A stretch of 64,000 bases of DNA from Comamonas resistens (GTDB lineage: Bacteria; Pseudomonadota; Gammaproteobacteria; Burkholderiales; Burkholderiaceae_C): contig NZ_CP125947.1 of the NCBI RefSeq assembly GCF_030064165.1, positions 5,084,001 to 5,148,000 of the forward strand, written 5' to 3'. The translations under genes and the position numbers were made by a program. Below are positions 1 to 8,221 of this stretch, piece after piece. How positions within the stretch are numbered: position 1 is the stretch's first letter; every line of letters starts with the position of its first letter. Under the pieces are notes generated by a model. That model saw only the letters and a program-made list of their open reading frames with translations. It ran no database searches and was not told the origin of the DNA.

Positions 1-1
1 G

Positions 2-367
2 TGGGACGACCAGCACGCCATGGTCTGGGGCATCACCGTGGTCGAGTGCGCGGCCATCGTGGTGCTGCTGGCCGTGCAAAAGCCTTCGGGCCTGGTCTAT
101 GAAATGCTGACCGCACCGCTGCTGGTGCGCCTGGGCAAGCTGTCCTACGGCATCTACCTCTGGCATTACCCCGTGGTGCGCTATCTGCGTGCCGACTATT
201 CCTGGCAGGTGACCGTGATTGCGGGCCTGCTGATCTCCACAGCGCTGTCCGCCCTGTCCTTCTACACGGTCGAGCGCTGGGCTCTGCGCCGCCGCGATAC
301 CAGCCAGCGCCCGGCTCCCCAACCCCGGCAGGAGCCGGGGCTGCGCGAAGCTACGCGCGGGTCTTAG
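2..367 (+). CDS. Acyltransferase 3 family protein, C-terminal part
   Basis: Only the last ~121 residues lie in the window; the reading frame is open from base 2 and the start is upstream. It contains the GKLSYGIYLWHYPVV block, a hallmark of the OafA/YrhL acyltransferase-3 family of multi-pass inner-membrane proteins that acylate sugars or cell-surface glycans. Hydrophobic segments flank this block (VVECAAIVVLLAV before it, VIAGLLISTALSALSFY after it), followed by an Arg/Pro-rich cytoplasmic tail. The TAG stop (365-367) overlaps the first bases of the inverted repeat of the structured repeat that follows, so the repeat may have set the present C-terminus. The substrate cannot be inferred. Confidence 0.8.
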   Translation, partial: WDDQHAMVWGITVVECAAIVVLLAVQKPSGLVYEMLTAPLLVRLGKLSYGIYLWHYPVVRYLRADYSWQVTVIAGLLISTALSALSFYTVERWALRRRDTSQRPAPQPRQEPGLREATRGS

Positions 368-633
368 AGCGTGTTCACGACCTTCTCGCGCCGCGACAGC
401 GGCTTTGCGGGAGGGGATGCAAGACGCAATACCGCAGCAATAGCCATGCTATTGCGAGGATTTGCAACGCCGCAGACTGCCCGCAAAGCCACCGTCCCGA
501 AGGGTTGAAGCGAAATCGGGCGATTTCTGCGCGTTGACTCTTGCTTGCACCCCGGTGCAAGCGGCGAGCCACCGCTTCGAACTCATCCCGATTGCGCTTC
601 AACGCGGCTGCGTAGAGATCGTGAACACGCTCT
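366..633. repeat. Structured 268-bp repeat element, copy A
   Basis: A 268-bp element with 15-bp perfect terminal inverted repeats (AGAGCGTGTTCACGA at 366-380 and its complement at 619-633). It fits exactly between two convergent genes; both stop codons (365-367 and 633-635) overlap its ends. Internal pairing is extensive: a hairpin at 437-455 (GCAATAGC arms), 401-411 pairing with 480-490, a hairpin at 543-562 (GCTTGCAC arms), and 505-520 pairing with 587-602. A second copy lies at 6211-6479. Where the copies differ in paired regions, several changes occur on both sides of the stem. No convincing protein is encoded. It could be a MITE-like non-autonomous element, a structured RNA or a bidirectional terminator. 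Confidence 0.85.
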
Positions 634-1295
634 TAAAACCCCGAGCCTGGCTGGGCCAGATATTCCTCCTCCCGGGCCGTATTGACACGGCCCAGGATGG
701 GGTTGCGGTGCGGAAAGCGTCCAAAACGCGCAATCACATCCTGATGACGGTGGGCATAGTCCAGGGTGCCCGCCAGATATTCGCGAGTCTCTGCATCCGG
801 GGCCATCTGCGCCAAGGCCTCGAAAGCCGCCACGCTGCGCTGCTGCATGGCGGGGTCTTCGGCGTGTTCCAGCGGTAGATACATGAACACGCGTACCACT
901 TCGGGCAGCTCCATGTCAGCCCCGCTGTCCAGCGCTTCCAGCGCCAGCGTCAGCGCCTGGGCGTCCCCGGCAAAGCTCTTGGGCGTGTTGCGGTGAATGT
1001 TGCGGGTGAACTGATCGAGCAGCAGCACCAGAGCCAGATGTCCCCAGGGTCCCTCGTTCCTCCAATGCTGCAGTGCGCCGCCCAGGGCCGCCTCCACTGC
1101 CAGGCCAAAGCGCTCGCGCAGCTGTTCGTCAAAAGCAGGCGATTTGGTGAACCACTGTGCCTTGTGCTGCAGGGCTTCGCCGTTGCTGGGCCGGGCACTG
1201 CCTAGCCACTGGGTCAACACCTGATCGGGCAGCGTTGCATCCGCAACAACCGCGCTCAGCGCCTGAAGATAGGAGGGGTTTGCATTGTCAGTCAT
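633..1295 (-). CDS. DUF924 family protein
   Basis: 220 residues, full length for the DUF924 family (TPR-like alpha-helical proteins, function unknown). Recognisable family features are WFTKSPAFDEQLRERF (about residues 48-63), the LVLLLDQFTRNIHRNTPKSF block (about 88-107), the VFMYLPLEHAED segment and the C-terminal RFGRFPHRNPILGR motif. It is cytosolic, with no signal peptide. Its stop codon overlaps the end of repeat copy A. About 290 bp of non-coding sequence separate it from the divergent lipoprotein gene downstream, in which I see no tRNA or clear RNA element. No function beyond family membership can be offered. Confidence 0.85.
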   Translation of the reverse strand: MTDNANPSYLQALSAVVADATLPDQVLTQWLGSARPSNGEALQHKAQWFTKSPAFDEQLRERFGLAVEAALGGALQHWRNEGPWGHLALVLLLDQFTRNIHRNTPKSFAGDAQALTLALEALDSGADMELPEVVRVFMYLPLEHAEDPAMQQRSVAAFEALAQMAPDAETREYLAGTLDYAHRHQDVIARFGRFPHRNPILGRVNTAREEEYLAQPGSGF

Positions 1296-1588
1296 GCAAG
1301 CATTGTGACTTCAGGACCCTGCCAACCAGGGCAGGCCAACCTTGGCCGCAGGCAAAGTTGTCAGCCCGGCTTCAGCCATGTCAACGAATTGACGCTCCGG
1401 ACGTTAGAAAACGCCGTCCCCAGATGCCGGATTGGTACGGAAACCTGGAACTTCAATCATCCACTGGGACTCAGGGGATTAGAGTCAGGAGAGAAAATGA
1501 CTGACTCAAAAAACATAGCGCCATGCGCTGATGTTTCAACAGGTTTCAAGGCATCGGGTTTATTTGTTTGCGGAGTCAGGCTGTTGTG

Positions 1589-2164
1589 ATGAATAGGCGC
1601 TCATGGTTGGTATTGGCAGTGGTCGGCGCAGGCTTGGCCGCCACAGGTTGTTCTGGCAAATCCATGCCCAGCAGCGTAAGCGTGAGCCAGCAAAAGCTGC
1701 AGGAAATGGTCTCCTCCCGCTTTCCCCGACAGTTCCCCGTCGCAGGGCTGCTGCATCTCAATCTGAGTGCCCCGCAACTGCTCATGGTGCCCGAGCGCAA
1801 TGCCATCAATGCCCAGATTCCGGCCGAGCTCAGCGGCAAGGTGCTCAAGGAAAAATACAGCGGCCTGCTCAATGTGGATTTTTCCCTGCGCTACGAGCCC
1901 ACGGACCGCACGCTGCGCGCCTATCAGATCAAGGTCAACAGCCTGAGCATGGACGGGCTGGCCCCGGCTCTCAGCGATATGCTGGCCACCTACTCCACGG
2001 CTCTGGCGGAGCAGGCCATGGGCCAGGTCGTGCTGTATCAGCTGCAGGACAAGGAGCTGGCCCTGGTCGAAGCCATGGCCATGGAGCCCGGCACCATCAC
2101 CGTCACGCCGCAAGGCCTGACCGTGCAGCTGCTGCAGAAAACCCCGCAGGACGCCAAGCGCTGA
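1589..2164 (+). CDS. DUF1439 family lipoprotein
   Basis: 191 residues, with a lipoprotein signal peptide: a basic MNRR start, a hydrophobic stretch and the lipobox AATGC placing the lipidated Cys at residue 21. The mature part matches the DUF1439 (YceB-like) outer-membrane-associated lipoproteins, which are predominantly beta-strand (the VSVSQQKLQEMVSSRFP, LMVPERNAINAQIPAEL and LNVDFSLRYEPTDRTLRAYQIKVNS regions). The ATG at 1589 was chosen because it gives a compact signal peptide; a TTG 21 bases upstream is in frame but less likely. A rho-independent terminator follows 15 bp after the stop. It is monocistronic. The family function is not established. Confidence 0.8.
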   Translation: MNRRSWLVLAVVGAGLAATGCSGKSMPSSVSVSQQKLQEMVSSRFPRQFPVAGLLHLNLSAPQLLMVPERNAINAQIPAELSGKVLKEKYSGLLNVDFSLRYEPTDRTLRAYQIKVNSLSMDGLAPALSDMLATYSTALAEQAMGQVVLYQLQDKELALVEAMAMEPGTITVTPQGLTVQLLQKTPQDAKR

Positions 2165-2178
2165 ACCGCCGCACCGCC

Positions 2179-2215
2179 AAAAGCCCGCCAGGCCACAGCC
2201 ATGCGGGCTTTTTTG
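2179..2215 (+). terminator. Rho-independent terminator
   Basis: Arms AAGCCCGC and GCGGGCTT enclose a short loop and are followed by TTTTTT. It lies between the convergent DUF1439 lipoprotein and ModA-like genes and probably ends the former; the A run on the other side allows some function in both directions. Confidence 0.8.
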
Positions 2216-2230
2216 TTGTCGAGACCGGAC

Positions 2231-3049
2231 TCAGCGCGGCTTGGCGACAGGCTCCAGCCCCGTGTCGCGAATCGCCTTGGCCGCAGCGGGCGAGGTATAG
2301 AACTTGAGCAATTGCTCCAGCCCCTGGGGGTTGGTCGATGTGCTGGCTGTACCGGCCGAAAAGAAGGTGTAGTGCTGTACCGAATCGGGCAGCGTTCCCA
2401 CATAGCTGACACCCTCGATCGGCAGCAGCTCGCTGACCTGCTGCAGGCCGATTTCCGCCTCGCCGCGCGCAACTATGGTGCCCACACGCTCGGTCACGAT
2501 CTTCTTGCTCTTGGGCATGACCTGGTCGTGAATGCCCAGCTTCTTGAGCATCTGCGTTTCGTAGTAGGTACCGCTGGCGCTGGCCGAATAGGCAATGCTC
2601 TTGGCGTTCAGCAGCACCTGGCGCAGCTTGTCCTCGCTGCTGATGTCGGGGATGGGTGCACCCTTCTTTACCGCCACTCCCACGGCCGAGCGCACCAGGT
2701 CGATCTGGGTTCCTGGTACCACCAGGCCCTGGGCCGCGAGCTGGTCCAGCGCACCCCGCGCGAGGATCACCACATCGGCCTTCTCGCCCTGGCTCAGACG
2801 GTTGGGAATCGAGGTCGGCGATGCGCCCATGGACGAGCCATAGGCCGACTCGACCGCGATGCCGGTCTGGGCCGTGAACTGGGGTGCCAGCAATTTGTGC
2901 GCCGCAGTAAAGCCGCCCGAAGTCATGAGGCGCACAGGTTCCGGTGCCGGCTGCGGCTTCGGGGCCTGCTGGGCACAACCGGCGGCCAGGGCCACGGCGC
3001 TGATCAGCAGCGCGCGGCGGGCCGTCAAAAAGGTAAAGGGCTTGTTCAT
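2231..3049 (-). CDS. ModA-like periplasmic substrate-binding lipoprotein
   Basis: 272 residues. The N-terminus MNKPFTFLTARR, a hydrophobic stretch and the lipobox ALAAGC (Cys25) indicate an exported lipoprotein. The body fits the molybdate-type extracellular solute-binding superfamily (SBP_bac_11): TSGGFTAAHKLLAPQFTAQTG near residue 43, ADVVILARGALDQL, SIAYSASASGTYYETQMLKKLGI and the C-terminal ARGEAEIGLQQVSELLPIEGV. No permease or ATPase gene is adjacent, so it is either an orphan binding protein or a sensor. The divergent LysR gene 163 bp away may control it. True molybdate binding is not shown: proteins of this orphan type are often annotated ModA without the transporter. Confidence 0.75.
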   Translation of the reverse strand: MNKPFTFLTARRALLISAVALAAGCAQQAPKPQPAPEPVRLMTSGGFTAAHKLLAPQFTAQTGIAVESAYGSSMGASPTSIPNRLSQGEKADVVILARGALDQLAAQGLVVPGTQIDLVRSAVGVAVKKGAPIPDISSEDKLRQVLLNAKSIAYSASASGTYYETQMLKKLGIHDQVMPKSKKIVTERVGTIVARGEAEIGLQQVSELLPIEGVSYVGTLPDSVQHYTFFSAGTASTSTNPQGLEQLLKFYTSPAAAKAIRDTGLEPVAKPR

Positions 3050-3068
3050 CGCTATGTCTCCGTATTGT

Positions 3069-3118
3069 TTTAAGTTGAAATGGCTTCAAACCTTTGCGCA
3101 GCAAACGCAAACAGCTAT
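3069..3118. repeat. Degenerate copy of the dispersed AGCTAT palindrome
   Basis: The stretch from GTTGAAATGG to AACAGCTAT resembles the right half of the palindrome at 8225-8310 (CTGAAATCCTTTGCC...CAGACAGCTAT). It lies between the divergent ModA-like and LysR genes. The match is partial, so this copy is tentative. Confidence 0.4.
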
Positions 3119-3212
3119 GTTTGTCATAGCTTCTCAACGGAGCACATTGTGAAAATCCACGGCCCGTCCGTCCAATACCGTTTGCGTCTGGACTTGATAC
3201 GAAAATCGTCCT

Positions 3213-4094
3213 ATGGATTTGCGTCGCCTTACCTGTTTTCTGGCCGTGGCCGAGGAACTGAATTTCAGCCGTGCGGCCCAGCGCCTGCATATGAGCCAGC
3301 CCCCGCTGAGCCAGCAGATCCGCCTGCTGGAGCAGGAGATGGGGGCGCAGTTGTTCGAGCGCTCACGCCGCGCCGTGGCACTGACGCCTGCAGGCCTGCT
3401 GCTGCAGGAAAAAGCGCGGCAGATCGTGGAGCTGCACCAGCAGGCGGGCGAGCTGGTGCGCATGGCGGCCCATGGCCTGGCCGGGCGGCTGCGCATTGCC
3501 TTCACGGCATCGGTGCCGCTGTTCGACGAGTTCTCGGCCATGCTGCGCGACTTCCGCAGCCGCCACCCGCAGGTGGAGCTCGATCTGCAGCACATGACCA
3601 CGGGCGAGCAGATCGCGGCGCTGACGGCCGGGCAGATCGACATCGGCTTTATGCGGCCCTCGCCAGCCTTTCGCATTCCCGTGCCGATCCGCGAACAGAC
3701 TTTGTGGCGTGACGAGCTGATGCTGGCCATGCCCGCCAGCCAGGCAGCAGCGGTGAATCACCCCATCGCACTGAGCGATCTGGCCGATCAGGCTTTTGTG
3801 CTGCATCCGGCCGTGCTCGGTGGCGGTCTGCACGAACATATTCTGGCGCTGTGCAGCGAAGCGGGCTTTGTGCCGCGCATCGCCCAGCCGGCGCGCGAGA
3901 CCTCGACCATGCTGGCACTGGTGGCCGCCGGGCTGGGCCTGTCCATCGTGCCCAGCGTCTATCAGCGCATCTGCCCGCCCGGCGTGGTGCTGCTGCCGCT
4001 GACCGATGCCGCGCGCCACTCGCGCATTGCACTGGTCAGCATGCAGCAGGCGCCATCACCCTGCGTGCAGATGTTCTGGCAGCTGCTGCGCTGA
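3213..4094 (+). CDS. LysR-type transcriptional regulator
   Basis: 293 residues, standard LysR length. The N-terminal winged helix-turn-helix (residues 1-60) carries the classic pattern FLAVAEELNFSRAAQRL, then SQPPLSQQIRLLEQEMG and LFERSRR. The effector-binding domain follows from about residue 90 (GRLRIAFTASVPLFDEF onward). Sequence flavour is closest to the BenM/CatM/CbnR branch that controls aromatic degradation (HPQVELDLQHMTTGEQIAAL, VAAGLGLSIVPSVYQ), but effector specificity cannot be read from sequence. It is divergent from the ModA-like lipoprotein gene and convergent with a Bug receptor gene; LysR members usually regulate the divergent neighbour. Confidence 0.9.
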   Translation: MDLRRLTCFLAVAEELNFSRAAQRLHMSQPPLSQQIRLLEQEMGAQLFERSRRAVALTPAGLLLQEKARQIVELHQQAGELVRMAAHGLAGRLRIAFTASVPLFDEFSAMLRDFRSRHPQVELDLQHMTTGEQIAALTAGQIDIGFMRPSPAFRIPVPIREQTLWRDELMLAMPASQAAAVNHPIALSDLADQAFVLHPAVLGGGLHEHILALCSEAGFVPRIAQPARETSTMLALVAAGLGLSIVPSVYQRICPPGVVLLPLTDAARHSRIALVSMQQAPSPCVQMFWQLLR

Positions 4095-4111
4095 GCAGTC
4101 CGTGTCGCGCA

Positions 4112-5155
4112 TCAGTCCGCGCGAATATCGGCAGCCCGGATGACTTCGCCGAGCTGCCGGGTCTCGGCCTGTATGAAGCTGCCGAACTGGGCCGGTGTTC
4201 CGCCCATGGGCGTGGCTCCCATATCGGCCAGCGTCTGAGTGACTGCCGGCGTGGTCAGCGCCTTGTTGAGCGCTGCGTTCAGGGCCTGTACCACGGCCTC
4301 GGGTGTTCCCTTGGGTGCCACCAGGCCCCACCATACGGTGGCCTGCACATCCACACCCAGGGAGCGCGCAGTAGGCACCTGGGGCAATAGGCGCGAGCCA
4401 TCCTTGTTGAGCACCGCCAAGGCGCGCAGGCTGCCGCTGCTCACATGGCCCGCCACCTCCAGCGGGTTGATCGCCATGAAGTCCAGACGTCCGCCCAGCA
4501 GATCTGTCACGGCGGTGGAGCCACCTTTGTAGGGAACATGCACGCCCTTGAACTGCCCTGCCTTTTCCAGCAAGGCACTGGCCATATGGCCCGAACTGCC
4601 CACGCCTGCCGTGCCATAGGACAGGGCGCCGGGCTTGGCCTTGCCCGCGGTGATGAGTTCGGCCAGGCTTTTGTACGGCGATTTGGCGTTGACCACGACG
4701 ACCAGCGGCGCCTCGCCTATGCGCCCCACCGGAATCAGGTCGGTCGCCGGATCGAAGCTGAGCTTGGAGTACAGCGCCTTGTTGGTGGTCAGCGTATTCG
4801 AGGCCGTCAGCAGCGTATAGCCATTGGGCGTGGCGCGTGCCACCGCCGCCATGCCGATATTGGTGCCGCCGCCGGGCTTGTTTTCCACCACGATGGACTG
4901 GCCCAGAAACTCCGCCATGGGCGTGGTGACCAGCCTGGTCACGATGTCCACGCCACCGGCTGGCGAATACGGCACGACGACCGTCACGGCACGTTCTGGA
5001 AATCCTGCAGCCACTGCAGCACCGCTGACCAGCGCCAGCCCCGCACCCAGTGCGGCAGCGCCCAGTCCCAGCGCTTGCCGCCGAGACAGCAAAGCGCAAG
5101 AAGAAACCTCTTCATCCATGAAGAAAGAATGGGGGCTGCGGGGAAGCTGATGCAT
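4112..5155 (-). CDS. Bug/TctC-family periplasmic solute-binding protein
   Basis: 347 residues. The start ATG at 5155 has GGAG seven bases upstream. The leader contains SRRQALGLG followed by an Ala/Gly-rich hydrophobic segment, which looks like a twin-arginine signal rather than the usual Sec signal of this family. The mature protein has the Bug fold signatures: FPERAVTVVVPYSPAGGVDIVTRLV, VVENKPGGGTNIG, the HVPYKGGSTAVTDLLGG block and the C-terminal GSFIQAETRQLGEVIRAA. Bug proteins bind carboxylates or related small molecules in the periplasm. No TctA/TctB membrane genes are adjacent, as is common for the many orphan Bug genes in this family of bacteria. Confidence 0.9.
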   Translation of the reverse strand: MHQLPRSPHSFFMDEEVSSCALLSRRQALGLGAAALGAGLALVSGAAVAAGFPERAVTVVVPYSPAGGVDIVTRLVTTPMAEFLGQSIVVENKPGGGTNIGMAAVARATPNGYTLLTASNTLTTNKALYSKLSFDPATDLIPVGRIGEAPLVVVVNAKSPYKSLAELITAGKAKPGALSYGTAGVGSSGHMASALLEKAGQFKGVHVPYKGGSTAVTDLLGGRLDFMAINPLEVAGHVSSGSLRALAVLNKDGSRLLPQVPTARSLGVDVQATVWWGLVAPKGTPEAVVQALNAALNKALTTPAVTQTLADMGATPMGGTPAQFGSFIQAETRQLGEVIRAADIRAD

Positions 5156-5391
5156 GTCATGTCTCCGTGATTCACTTCTTATGAAGCACCCAATATCACC
5201 CCGTGAAGCGCCGCCCCTGATGAGGGAATCTGCGTACCCGCATCTGCCCCCCATCTCCAATTGGCATCGCTGCCTGCAAGCCCGCATGACAACAGGTAGG
5301 ATGATCGAGAGCTTTGCGCCGCGGCCTGCCAGCCCACGCCAACTGCCCCTGCGGGGGCCAAGAGATTGCCAACACGCTCCGAAGGAAACTC

Positions 5392-6114
5392 ATGACGCAA
5401 CCCCAAGTACTCGCCGAATTTTCCGTGACCCGTAAATGGCCTGCGCAGCACCCCGAGCGCATCCAGCTGTACTCGCTGCCCACGCCCAACGGCGTGAAGG
5501 TGTCGATTGCGCTGGAGGAAATGCAGCTGCCTTACGAGGCGCATCTGGTCAGCTTCCAGACCAACGACCAGCTCACGCCCGAGTTTGTGGGCACCTTCCC
5601 CAACAACAAGATTCCCGCCATCATCGATCCGCAAGGCCCGGGCGGCCTGCCGCTGGCCCTGTTCGAGTCGGGCGCCATCCTGATCTATCTGGCCGAAAAA
5701 TCCGGCAGCCCCTTGCTGCCTGCAGCACCCGCAGCGCGCTACGAAACGCTGCAGTGGCTGATGTTCCAGATGGGCGGCGTAGGTCCCATGTTTGGCCAGG
5801 TAGGCTTCTTCCACAAGTACGGCGGCAAGGACTTCGAGGACAAGCGCCCGCGCGACCGCTACATCAACGAATCCAAACGCCTGCTGGGCGTGCTGGAGCA
5901 GCGCATGCTGGGCCGCCCGTGGATCATGGGCGAGCAGTTCACGATTGCCGACATCGCCATCTGGCCCTGGGTGCGCAATATGGTGGAGGAAAGCGGCTAC
6001 GACGCCGGCGAGCTGGTCGGCTGGAAGAACTTCCCGCAGCTGCAGCGCGTGCTGGCCTCCTTTGTGGCGCGGCCCGGAGTGCAAAAAGGTCTGAACATTC
6101 CGCCACGCGGCTGA
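5392..6114 (+). CDS. Glutathione S-transferase, YfcG/YghU (nu-class) type
   Basis: 240 residues; start chosen at 5392 because GAAGGA lies six bases upstream. The N-terminal thioredoxin-like domain starts IQLYSLPTPNGVKVSIALEEM, in which TPNG is the glutathione-contacting Thr/Asn motif of YfcG/YghU-type enzymes, followed by NNKIPAIID with the conserved cis-Pro and FESGAILIYLAEK. The C-terminal helical domain has the GEQFTIADIAIWPWVRN helix-cap motif. Nu-class members reduce disulfides or peroxides with glutathione. It is cytosolic. It lies divergent to the Bug gene and is followed after about 100 bp by repeat copy B. Confidence 0.88.
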   Translation: MTQPQVLAEFSVTRKWPAQHPERIQLYSLPTPNGVKVSIALEEMQLPYEAHLVSFQTNDQLTPEFVGTFPNNKIPAIIDPQGPGGLPLALFESGAILIYLAEKSGSPLLPAAPAARYETLQWLMFQMGGVGPMFGQVGFFHKYGGKDFEDKRPRDRYINESKRLLGVLEQRMLGRPWIMGEQFTIADIAIWPWVRNMVEESGYDAGELVGWKNFPQLQRVLASFVARPGVQKGLNIPPRG

Positions 6115-6210
6115 TCAGCAGCGTCCCGAGACGGGCCAACTGTTGCAGAAACGGCTGGCACTGTCCCACCGATGGTGTCTTTCAACGGGCGTGCCTGGCC
6201 TTATCTTCTG

Positions 6211-6479
6211 AGAACGTGTTGACGATCTCCTCGCGCCGCGACAGCGGCTTTGCGGGATGGGATGCAAGGCGCAATACCGCAGCAATAGCCGTGCTATTGC
6301 GAGGATTTGCAACGCCGCAGACCGCCCGCAAAGACACTGTCCCGAAGGGTTGGAGCGAAATCGGGCGATTTCTGCGCGCTGTCTCTTGCTTGCACCCCGG
6401 TGCAAGCGGCGAGCCATCCGCTTCGAACTCGTCCCGATTGCGCTCCAACGCGGCGGCGTAGAGATCGTCAACACGTTCT
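6211..6479. repeat. Structured 269-bp repeat element, copy B
   Basis: Second copy of the element at 366-633, in the same orientation. The terminal inverted repeat is AGAACGTGTTGACGATCTC, 19 bp and perfect at both ends (6211-6229 and 6461-6479). Against copy A the terminal repeat differs at positions 4 and 11, and both ends carry the matching change, so pairing is kept. The internal stem also covaries (TTGGAG at 6350-6355 with CTCCAA at 6443-6448, versus TTGAAG/CTTCAA in copy A). Local hairpins with GCAATAGC and GCTTGCAC arms are conserved. The copy fills most of the 410 bp between the GST and pirin genes. Confidence 0.85.
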
Positions 6480-6524
6480 GAGAGTCAGGCTTTGCGGATG
6501 GCAATAGCCCACAAGGAGATCACC

Positions 6525-7577
6525 ATGACCACGACCCACCCGATTCTGGAAAGCGCCCCTCTGGGCCCACGCTGGCCCTGCCTGGACCCTTTCCTGTTCT
6601 GCGCTCACCACGATGACAGCTACCCTGCCAGCGACGGCAAGATGGGCGTGCAGGCCGTGGAGTTCGAAGGCCGCGAAATGGGCAGCGACTTCAGCGCCAA
6701 GGATGGCTTTTCCATGTACCACGGCGAGCAGATCCCCGGCTTTCCCGGCCACCCCCATCGCGGCTTCGAGACCGTGACTCTGGTGCGCAAGGGCCGCATC
6801 GACCATGCGGATTCGCTGGGCGCGGCCGCACGCTTCGGCGGCGGCGACGTGCAGTGGCTGACGGCCGGCAAGGGCATCCAGCACTCGGAGATGTTTCCTT
6901 TGCTCAACAGCGACCAGCCCAATCCGCTGGAGCTGTTCCAGATCTGGCTGAACCTGCCTGCGAGGAACAAGATGGTGGAGCCCCACTTCACCATGTTCTG
7001 GAACGAGCAGATTCCGCGCCTGAGCTTCGGCGATGCGGCGGGCAGGAAAACCACTGTTACCGTGGTGGCAGGCTCGCTGGACGGTGCGGACAAGGCCTTG
7101 CCGCCGCCGCCCGAATCCTGGGCCTCCCAGGCTGACAGCGATGTGGCCATCTGGACACTGGCGCTGGAACCCGGCGCCCGCTGGACCATGCCCAAGGCTG
7201 CAGGTGCCGAAACCCATCGCATGCTCTACTTCTTTGTGGGCCAAAGCATGAGCGTGGATGGCGAAGCCGTGAACGAACATCTGGCCATGCATATAGCCGC
7301 GCAGCGCGACCTGGAGCTGGTCAACACCGGCAAGGACACCGTGGAGCTGCTTCTGCTGCAGGGCAAGCCGATCGGCGAAACCGTGGCCCAGTACGGCCCC
7401 TTCGTCATGAATACGCAACAGGAAATCATGCAGGCCATGCAGGACTATCGCCGTACCCAGTTCGGCGGCTGGCCCTGGAAGGACAACGACCCTGTGCATG
7501 GTGCCGAGAACCGCCGCTTTGCGCGCTACCCCGGCGCGACCGAGGACGACCTGCCCCCGCTGGCCGCTACCGCCTGA
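6525..7577 (+). CDS. Pirin family protein (long form)
   Basis: 350 residues. The ATG at 6525 is preceded by AAGGAG at good spacing. The N-terminal cupin carries the pirin metal-site pattern: GHPHRGFETVTLVRKGRIDHADSLG (His ligands) and GDVQWLTAGKGIQHSEMFP (His/Glu ligands), about residues 80-125. A second cupin follows, ending in VAQYGPFVMNTQQEIMQAMQDYRRTQFGGWPW, the usual pirin C-terminal signature. Bacterial pirins are Fe-binding; some are quercetinases and others bind metabolic enzymes, so the activity here is open. At 350 residues it is longer than the second pirin of this window (311 residues at 28176-29111), with an extended N-terminus and a Pro-rich insertion. Confidence 0.9.
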   Translation: MTTTHPILESAPLGPRWPCLDPFLFCAHHDDSYPASDGKMGVQAVEFEGREMGSDFSAKDGFSMYHGEQIPGFPGHPHRGFETVTLVRKGRIDHADSLGAAARFGGGDVQWLTAGKGIQHSEMFPLLNSDQPNPLELFQIWLNLPARNKMVEPHFTMFWNEQIPRLSFGDAAGRKTTVTVVAGSLDGADKALPPPPESWASQADSDVAIWTLALEPGARWTMPKAAGAETHRMLYFFVGQSMSVDGEAVNEHLAMHIAAQRDLELVNTGKDTVELLLLQGKPIGETVAQYGPFVMNTQQEIMQAMQDYRRTQFGGWPWKDNDPVHGAENRRFARYPGATEDDLPPLAATA

Positions 7578-7735
7578 AAATGGCACTGTCGGCGGCGGTT
7601 GTTCAAACGCTGCCACAATGTGCGCCTGACCGCCACGACCTTTGCGGGCCGTGGCTGCTTTGTTTTGGAGCCGCTCAAACCGCAGCCTGCGATGGGCCTA
7701 TGGGTATGAGCCGCTCGCGGAATCTCCAGACTGTC

Positions 7736-8221
7736 ATGAACATCACCAAAGACACTGCCGTCACCATCAATTACAAGATTCACGAGCTGCTCGCGGGCGG
7801 CGTGGCCGTCAAACTGCTGGACAAGGGCGATGTGGCCTATCTGCACGGCGGCTATGACAACATCTTCGCCAAGGTCGAAGCCGCTCTGGACGGCAAGCAA
7901 AAAGGCGATACCGTGACCGTGGACCTGGCCGTGGCAGACGCCTTCGGCGAGCGCGACGAGAGCCTCAAGCGCACCATTCCCAAGGGCGAGTTCCCCGCGG
8001 GCGTGAAGGTGGGCGGCCAGCTGCGCGGCACCAACGACCAGGGCCTGCCCCAGATCTACAACGTGGTGAAGATCAAGGGCCCCGTGGTGCTGCTGGACGG
8101 CAACCACCCTCTGGCCGGTTTTGCACTGCGCTTCAGCGCGGTGGTCAACGAGGTGCGTGCAGCTTCGGAAGAAGAAATCGCCCACAAGCATGTGCATGGC
8201 GGCCACGGCCATCACCATTGA
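7736..8221 (+). CDS. slyD: FKBP-type peptidyl-prolyl isomerase SlyD
   Basis: 161 residues. The start at 7736 (MNITKDTAVTINYKI) is the natural family start; the open frame extends upstream without family similarity. The FKBP domain contains LLDKGDVAYLHGGYDNIF and GERDESLKRTIPKGEFP, with the insert-in-flap domain between about residues 65 and 125. The tail ends HKHVHGGHGHHH, a short His-rich metal-binding tail typical of SlyD, which acts as a cytosolic prolyl isomerase, chaperone and Ni/Zn-binding protein. A strong bidirectional terminator and a dispersed palindrome lie downstream, before the convergent purC gene. Confidence 0.9.
   Translation: MNITKDTAVTINYKIHELLAGGVAVKLLDKGDVAYLHGGYDNIFAKVEAALDGKQKGDTVTVDLAVADAFGERDESLKRTIPKGEFPAGVKVGGQLRGTNDQGLPQIYNVVKIKGPVVLLDGNHPLAGFALRFSAVVNEVRAASEEEIAHKHVHGGHGHHH

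Follow-up and report, generated by a model that had tools for sequence, protein, structure and literature searches.

The stretch of Comamonas resistens DNA analysed here (64,000 nucleotides, called the window below; contig NZ_CP125947.1, positions 5,084,001 to 5,148,000) carries two copies of a structured non-coding repeat, copy A at 366-633 (268 bp) and copy B at 6211-6479 (269 bp). They share 93% identity, and a search with 16-base seeds reported no other direct-repeat family of at least 40 bp in the window. Copy A sits between convergent genes, an acyltransferase-like open reading frame (ORF; PF01757, under the cut-off) and a DUF924 gene, while copy B has a GST-like gene on one side and a pirin gene on the other. 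Both copies fold better than expected by chance: compared with dinucleotide shuffles their z-scores are -9.6 and -11.8, and none of 200 shuffles was equally good. Once 3-bp duplications are allowed for, the mobile unit comes to 367-632 (266 bp) and 6212-6478 (267 bp), and the element, a miniature inverted-repeat transposable element (MITE), is laid out as end, module, linker, inverted module and end. The features are as follows, with bit scores from the covariance model R1 described below.

364-366, no strand: target duplication TTA, left of copy A (from identical TNA duplications in the family and from empty sites)
367-632, + strand: MITE copy A, 266 bp between the duplications
366-384, + strand: left terminal inverted repeat of A, the outer stem, pairing with 615-633
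408-483, + strand: core hairpin module of A, sense on the + strand (87.0 bits)
484-516, no strand: linker separating the two inverted modules of A, including the foot of the right stem
517-590, - strand: second module of A, diverged and inverted (34.0 bits)
615-633, + strand: right terminal inverted repeat of A
633-635, no strand: target duplication TTA, right of copy A
6209-6211, no strand: target duplication TGA, left of copy B
6212-6478, + strand: MITE copy B, 267 bp between the duplications
6253-6328, + strand: core hairpin module of B (97.6 bits)
6362-6436, - strand: second module of B, inverted (26.0 bits with filters off; unreported at default filters)
6479-6481, no strand: target duplication TGA, right of copy B

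A preliminary description of this DNA had given the same copy coordinates, with ends perfect inside each copy, and re-inspection bore this out. It had also pointed to positions 4 (G in A, A in B) and 11 (C in A, G in B), at which the opposite end carries the complementary change, and to an internal stem that shifts from TTGAAG at 505-510 and CTTCAA at 597-602 to TTGGAG and CTCCAA in B; both are there, as are the hairpins at 437-455 and 543-562. The whole C. resistens genome gave at least 13 DNA matches to the element, nine of them full-length, and at least 11 module matches, the per-genome counts from genome searches being lower bounds throughout.

Copies A and B are copies of a non-autonomous, non-coding transposon, a MITE. 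A full-length set of 127 rows was assembled from nine loci of the same genome, 99 stretches from relatives and 19 named loci; it held 121 distinct sequences, with at least five places present twice (L070/L237, L079/L276, L093/L262, L137/L271 and L151/L274). Identical target duplications, all of the form TNA, flanked 76 of the 126 rows in which both sides were readable, and the middle base was equal on both sides in 91 of the 126, against a shuffled mean of 45 and maximum of 62. The joined flanks of locus A matched eight congeners over query positions 1-398 or 1-400, and those of locus B matched 11 congeners over 1-400, 2-400 or 8-400, two of these at only 67-69% identity. The orthologous loci without the element to which the preliminary description had looked for a clean target do therefore exist in congeners for both copies; the aligned sites (eight at locus A, nine at locus B) hold no element-size insert, but they have diverged and carry 4-27 bases of small gaps. 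The family thus has the fixed-kind short duplication, the dispersed copies, the empty sites and the lack of a transposase gene that mark MITEs of the IS5 family. A coding role was rejected, since full-length copies vary in length by single bases, and phage cargo was rejected on zero matches among 50,697 phage records; three plasmid records matched the element.

The ends of these copies are matched without being perfect as a rule. A perfect 19-base end match was found in 47 of the 127 rows, and the mean match was 18.1 of 19 bases within a copy versus 16.1 between copies. On both sides, 103 rows carried G/ACGA ends, 15 C/AAAG and four G/AAAG; in the remaining five, a single class-defining base deviated on one side. 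No row among the 127 mixed ACGA-type with AAAG-type ends. Together with the TNA duplications and the empty sites, this absence of mixed types supports the earlier suggestion of a MITE with matched ends. Terminal inverted repeats matching those of an autonomous insertion sequence (IS) are present in the 19 of 127 rows with AAAG-type ends on both sides.

Candidate donors of the transposase were found in congeners, where IS5-family elements of 842-843 bp have ends GARCSTGTTCAAAGTCT and TNA duplications like those of the MITE. One transposase search yielded 30 loci, and 11 of them had both GARCSTGTTCAAAGTCT-type ends together with identical TNA duplications. In L190, the sole IS examined whole, two overlapping frames match DUF4096 and DDE_Tnp_1, and the second of them passes the NF033580 cut-off (144 vs 110 bits), other tested frames scoring below it. 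The transposase at L190:900-1800 is split over these two overlapping frames, with an A-run within the overlap, an arrangement that suggests programmed frameshifting. Such frameshifting is typical of some IS5 groups. An 842-bp IS also lies beside a MITE copy at L215:1369-2479, with one TTA in between. On the likeness of ends and duplications, the MITE is probably moved in trans by such an IS5-family transposase, the element borrowing another's enzyme. A transposase acting in trans would demand two matching ends, and that need would account for the covariation of the outer stem. Two findings speak against this assignment: the ACGATC end type of A and B was seen at a single IS end, on the cut contig L178, and the C. 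resistens genome yielded no intact partner transposase, its two DUF4096 matches being interrupted or partial. A relative of the L178 transposase was not found there either.

Between the ends, the body was modelled from its left hairpin. The resulting covariance model, R1 (39 sequences, 26 pairs), also matched the right hairpin on the opposite strand, scoring 25-41 bits in each of 18 further loci, and a first module read in reverse scored at most about 15 bits. Its E-values come from a short calibration, the best match in 39 non-Comamonas loci having 18.3 bits and E 0.03. These matches showed the body to consist of two inverted copies of one hairpin of about 76 nt, with fixed asymmetric loops and covarying stems, so that the two hairpins noted earlier are inverted copies of a single module, a relation that the preliminary description had overlooked. 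All 18 related loci hold this REPIN-like unit of two inverted hairpins.

The preliminary description had also missed that the module is spread class-wide under unrelated ends. A DNA search of 299 genomes of the family found the element or its left hairpin in 117, covering 68 of 141 genera. R1 was positive in 84 of 250 genomes drawn at the level of the order, in 69 of 274 for the class and in 53 of 398 for the phylum. Outside the class it matched 32 genomes, of which 27 belong to one family. A fuller search of six genomes gave from at least 11 to at least 60 matches each. Two inverted modules, 27-48 nt apart, were found in 19 of 51 distinct distant loci, the others showing one, and 46 of the 51 had an end match. 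Element lengths there were 150-170 in 10 loci, 235-245 in six, 255-275 in 17 and of other values in 13, several of which are inner arms. Judged by eye, the same hairpin is enclosed within the family by five kinds of ends, of which one is known from two loci and another from a single locus; the ends of an IS5_4 (NF033581) element are similar to one of the five. When 44 ends (39 distant loci and five representatives) were clustered, they fell into 12 classes at 66% similarity and 17 at 72%, compared with 39 and 43 for random sets, one such set serving as control per cut-off; at 62.5% similarity almost all ends were chained into one class. The loci left outside this classification comprised five without an end match, the rest being inner arms only, repeat places or L458. 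Module-bearing L375 and L369 (ends CTAGTACAGCAACC..) and L462, L472 and L457 (ends CTAGTGTA..) have CTAG-type ends resembling IS630-like elements. No Rfam 15 family matched window positions 1-8000 or the two sets of 12 and 17 loci searched, which gave only weak matches far under the gathering scores, and a known RNA family was ruled out on these scores.

Covariation was examined at three depths. For Comamonas, trees were built from 110 representative rows under 97% identity, in which 10,593 of 11,192 cells over 102 pairs were Watson-Crick. The preliminary description had held that pairing would be incidental if most copies broke the stems by single uncompensated changes. Parsimony over 97 pairs found this on terminal branches, with 268 single breaks against 34 double Watson-Crick changes, but not on internal branches, where 47 double changes stood against 37 single breaks (12 A-C, 10 G-T and 15 other). 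When the partners were slid by 1-3 columns, internal branches gave 8-19 doubles and 137-217 singles, as compared with 59 doubles and 47 singles of all kinds for the true pairing. These event counts come from short, probably recombining sequences, and pairs 172-175 and 35/126 were excluded from them. Recent copies thus tend to lose pairs through single changes, while in established lineages compensation is the more frequent outcome. This pattern would be expected if dead copies decay alongside active ones.

The deep set consisted of 28 rows from 27 places (L334 = L341), 18 genomes and 13 genera, none of them Comamonas, six shorter matches of an initial 34 having been dropped. Here 2,906 of 3,173 cells were Watson-Crick (cell counts keep all pairs, and the 122 A-C cells of this set include 28 from 157/224), and of 115 pairs 59 showed two or more Watson-Crick types and 35 three or more. 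Several loops stayed fixed in these rows. The same rows bear on a proposed conserved switch between two exclusive folds. GAAATCGGG (512) does lie opposite both a local CGATTTC and the distant CCCGATT (587) in the window, but the local CGATTTC is present in only three of the 28 deep rows and the switch is not upheld; the distant pairing is kept, with AATCGGG in all 28 and CCCGATT in 25, and the full GAAATCGGGCGATTTC was found in 81 of the 110 Comamonas copies. For the class-wide module, a model-fitted alignment, which itself favours pairing, had 92.4% of cells paired (63.9% shuffled, 28-41% slid), and a covariation score of 0.676 (0.171 shuffled, 0.04-0.07 slid). Of its 26 pairs, 23 had changed on both sides (shuffled mean 18.3); in an unfitted alignment, 16 of the 26 had done so versus 6.2. 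Pairing is thus selected beyond the element ends, and the compensated changes and covariation in all three sets bear out the earlier proposal of selection on pairing.

An ordinary MITE, in which pairing is kept solely for the matching ends of the transposase and the interior covaries by descent of a few subfamilies, would agree with an outer stem that is the richest part in internal-branch double changes (27 over 19 pairs, against 20 over the 78 elsewhere). As interior pairs covary deeply in the class-wide module set, this reading is already contradicted and we consider it very improbable. Homogenisation of the arms must also be weighed: the palindrome would extrude or fold as it is replicated, and one arm would be copied onto the other by template switching or mismatch repair, yielding covariation without structural selection. 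Some 1x1 mismatches are indeed paired in part of the 110 copies (37/124 in 38, 169/207 in 20 and 148/229 in 13), end types agree at both element ends, and the lasting single mispairs are T-C, A-G and C-T, which are poorly repaired types. Simple overwriting of arms would, however, make mismatched loops disappear, and mismatches last at 20-21/248-249 (CT/TA in 106 of 110), 51-52/110-111 (GA/GA in 88) and 159/217 (T/C in 105). Loop bases 57-60 and 101-103 are nearly frozen while other loop bases change often, and a bias of the module toward G-U over A-C, set out below, is not predicted either. Wholesale arm conversion as the sole cause is rejected on the lasting loops and frozen bases, and homogenisation as the general explanation is unlikely, though arm correction may contribute to the pairing.

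A folded RNA should tolerate G-U but not A-C, and on one strand only, and this wobble test was applied with the outer stem as comparison, since a transposase should see that stem as double-stranded DNA. Counts exclude 172-175, 35/126, junction pairs and deep-set 157/224, and the class-wide count excludes 16-18/123-125. The class-wide module showed 34 changes from Watson-Crick to G-T and eight to A-C (p 7e-5). Gains of G-T and A-C in the module were 26:12 in Comamonas and 15:4 in the deep set, those of the outer stem 26:42 and 1:5, and those of its inner part 9:13 and 10:8, so that module and outer stem differ (41:16 vs 46:68, p 1e-4). Several other counts pull the opposite way. Sums over the whole element are free of bias (G-T 93 and A-C 108 in Comamonas, 42 and 49 in the deep set), the left basal stem leans toward A-C (6:15 and 5:13), as does the right upper stem (0:9 and 3:19, with uncertain pairs), and the right basal stem (25:16 and 8:0) fails to mirror the prediction from its inverted orientation. 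The module bias gives moderate support to a strand-specific fold and falls short of proving RNA; the structured RNA offered in the preliminary description is accordingly possible for the module, while the whole-element counts do not bear it out.

The same strand-specific bias would be produced by a single-stranded DNA hairpin. A host or transposition protein would then recognise the module in its folded DNA form, much as happens with REPINs or attC sites. The REPIN-like geometry of two inverted hairpins fits such a role, and so does the absence of a clear orientation bias toward genes, but the obvious candidate protein, Y1/RAYT, does not track the element, and elements consisting of ends only spread without the module; we regard this possibility as less likely than not. 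RAYT was rejected as a partner, since G012 has at least 12 element matches and no PF01797 match, while G010 and G016 have RAYT and no element. Exactly one Y1_Tnp (RAYT-like) match was found in 21 of the 24 genus genomes searched, one of them below the cut-off (e.g. G000:C1:807465-807761).

We therefore propose, with a probability of about 0.6, that the element is a selected folded module of putative function housed in a MITE chassis, the ends of which are adjusted as the transposases change. Selection would act on the folded single strand of the module, and the most likely form of its action, to which we give roughly even odds, is that of an RNA in read-through transcripts, the single-stranded DNA hairpin being the less likely alternative. 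The two inverted copies would place one sense module on each strand, so that the module would work in either landing orientation. It would insulate or process read-through transcripts, along the lines reported for Correia and ERIC (PMC10969869), and make insertions tolerable, so that lineages would hold on to the body as their ends adapted to new transposases; such a benefit after insertion is a plausible conjecture. In a bolder reading, to which we give odds slightly below even, the module is selfish and outlives its transposases across the class. It would persist in the form of folded RNA or of single-stranded DNA, and its host MITEs would repeatedly swap ends and parasitise new IS families, which would place one body under a dozen or more unrelated ends.

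Two further observations weigh against the proposed selected module in its MITE chassis. Palindromes of 51-71 bp made of ends only were found 15 times in 120 named loci, 10 of them with identical 3-bp flanks; eight are 57 bp long (e.g. L062:1572-1628, L117:7658-7714, L126:808-864 and L146:2278-2334), and 14 come from Comamonas composti contigs and one from a record titled Pantoea sp. 18069. As they occur in number, the body is not required for movement, and a body dispensable for movement favours a role after insertion. The other concerns gene context, for which 48 of 60 loci could be classed from crude ORF calls (five were too far, four had no call and three lay inside a predicted ORF; L022 = L137): 32 were tandem, 11 convergent and five divergent, and relative to tandem genes the element lay both ways round (18 vs 14). 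The stop codon of a neighbouring gene coincides with the element junction in 18 of the 48 classed loci (raw count), as at window positions 364-367 and 633-635, the TNA targets at these junctions being TAA/TGA or their complements.

MITEs are usually regarded as the leftovers of one IS and are defined by their ends. In the present element the inside is conserved and the ends vary. Should the module indeed function as RNA or as folded DNA, it would represent a widespread structured element for which no Rfam 15 family was found, and it would become testable why palindromic MITEs last long and how they switch transposase. Caution is also called for, as covariation searches for new RNAs may land on mobile DNA.

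The kind of MITE is already known, and no description of a structured body common to many end classes across a bacterial class was found in the open-licence literature, subscription papers and ISfinder aside. With IS5-family MITEs (of the IS427/IS1031-like groups) the element shares terminal inverted repeats of the IS5 kind, TNA duplications, dispersal and the lack of a transposase gene, but it differs from them in its conserved two-hairpin body, which is also found under unrelated ends. REPINs or BIMEs with RAYT, as far as the available part of their description goes (PMC3116915), are likewise dissemination units of two inverted hairpins in many copies, whereas the hairpins here are of about 76 nt, lie inside transposon ends with target duplications and are not distributed in step with RAYT. 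Correia and ERIC are MITEs with folded transcripts, for which processing by RNase III (Correia) or RNase E (ERIC) is reported, and the sections available of that source report no module common to unrelated terminal repeats (PMC10969869). QMITE1 and QMITE2 are gammaproteobacterial MITEs with folded transcripts, some yielding small RNAs; the accessible text reports no orthologues of QMITE1 in other genomes, whereas the present module is class-wide, a distinction drawn by description only (PMC5896051). The GTAG and CGTC palindromic repeats, in the portion of their account at hand (PMC3733652), are also dispersed hairpins, often in inverted dimers, but they have stems of 5-13 bp and a 4-nt tag, while the present module has 26 pairs with internal loops and lies inside a transposon.

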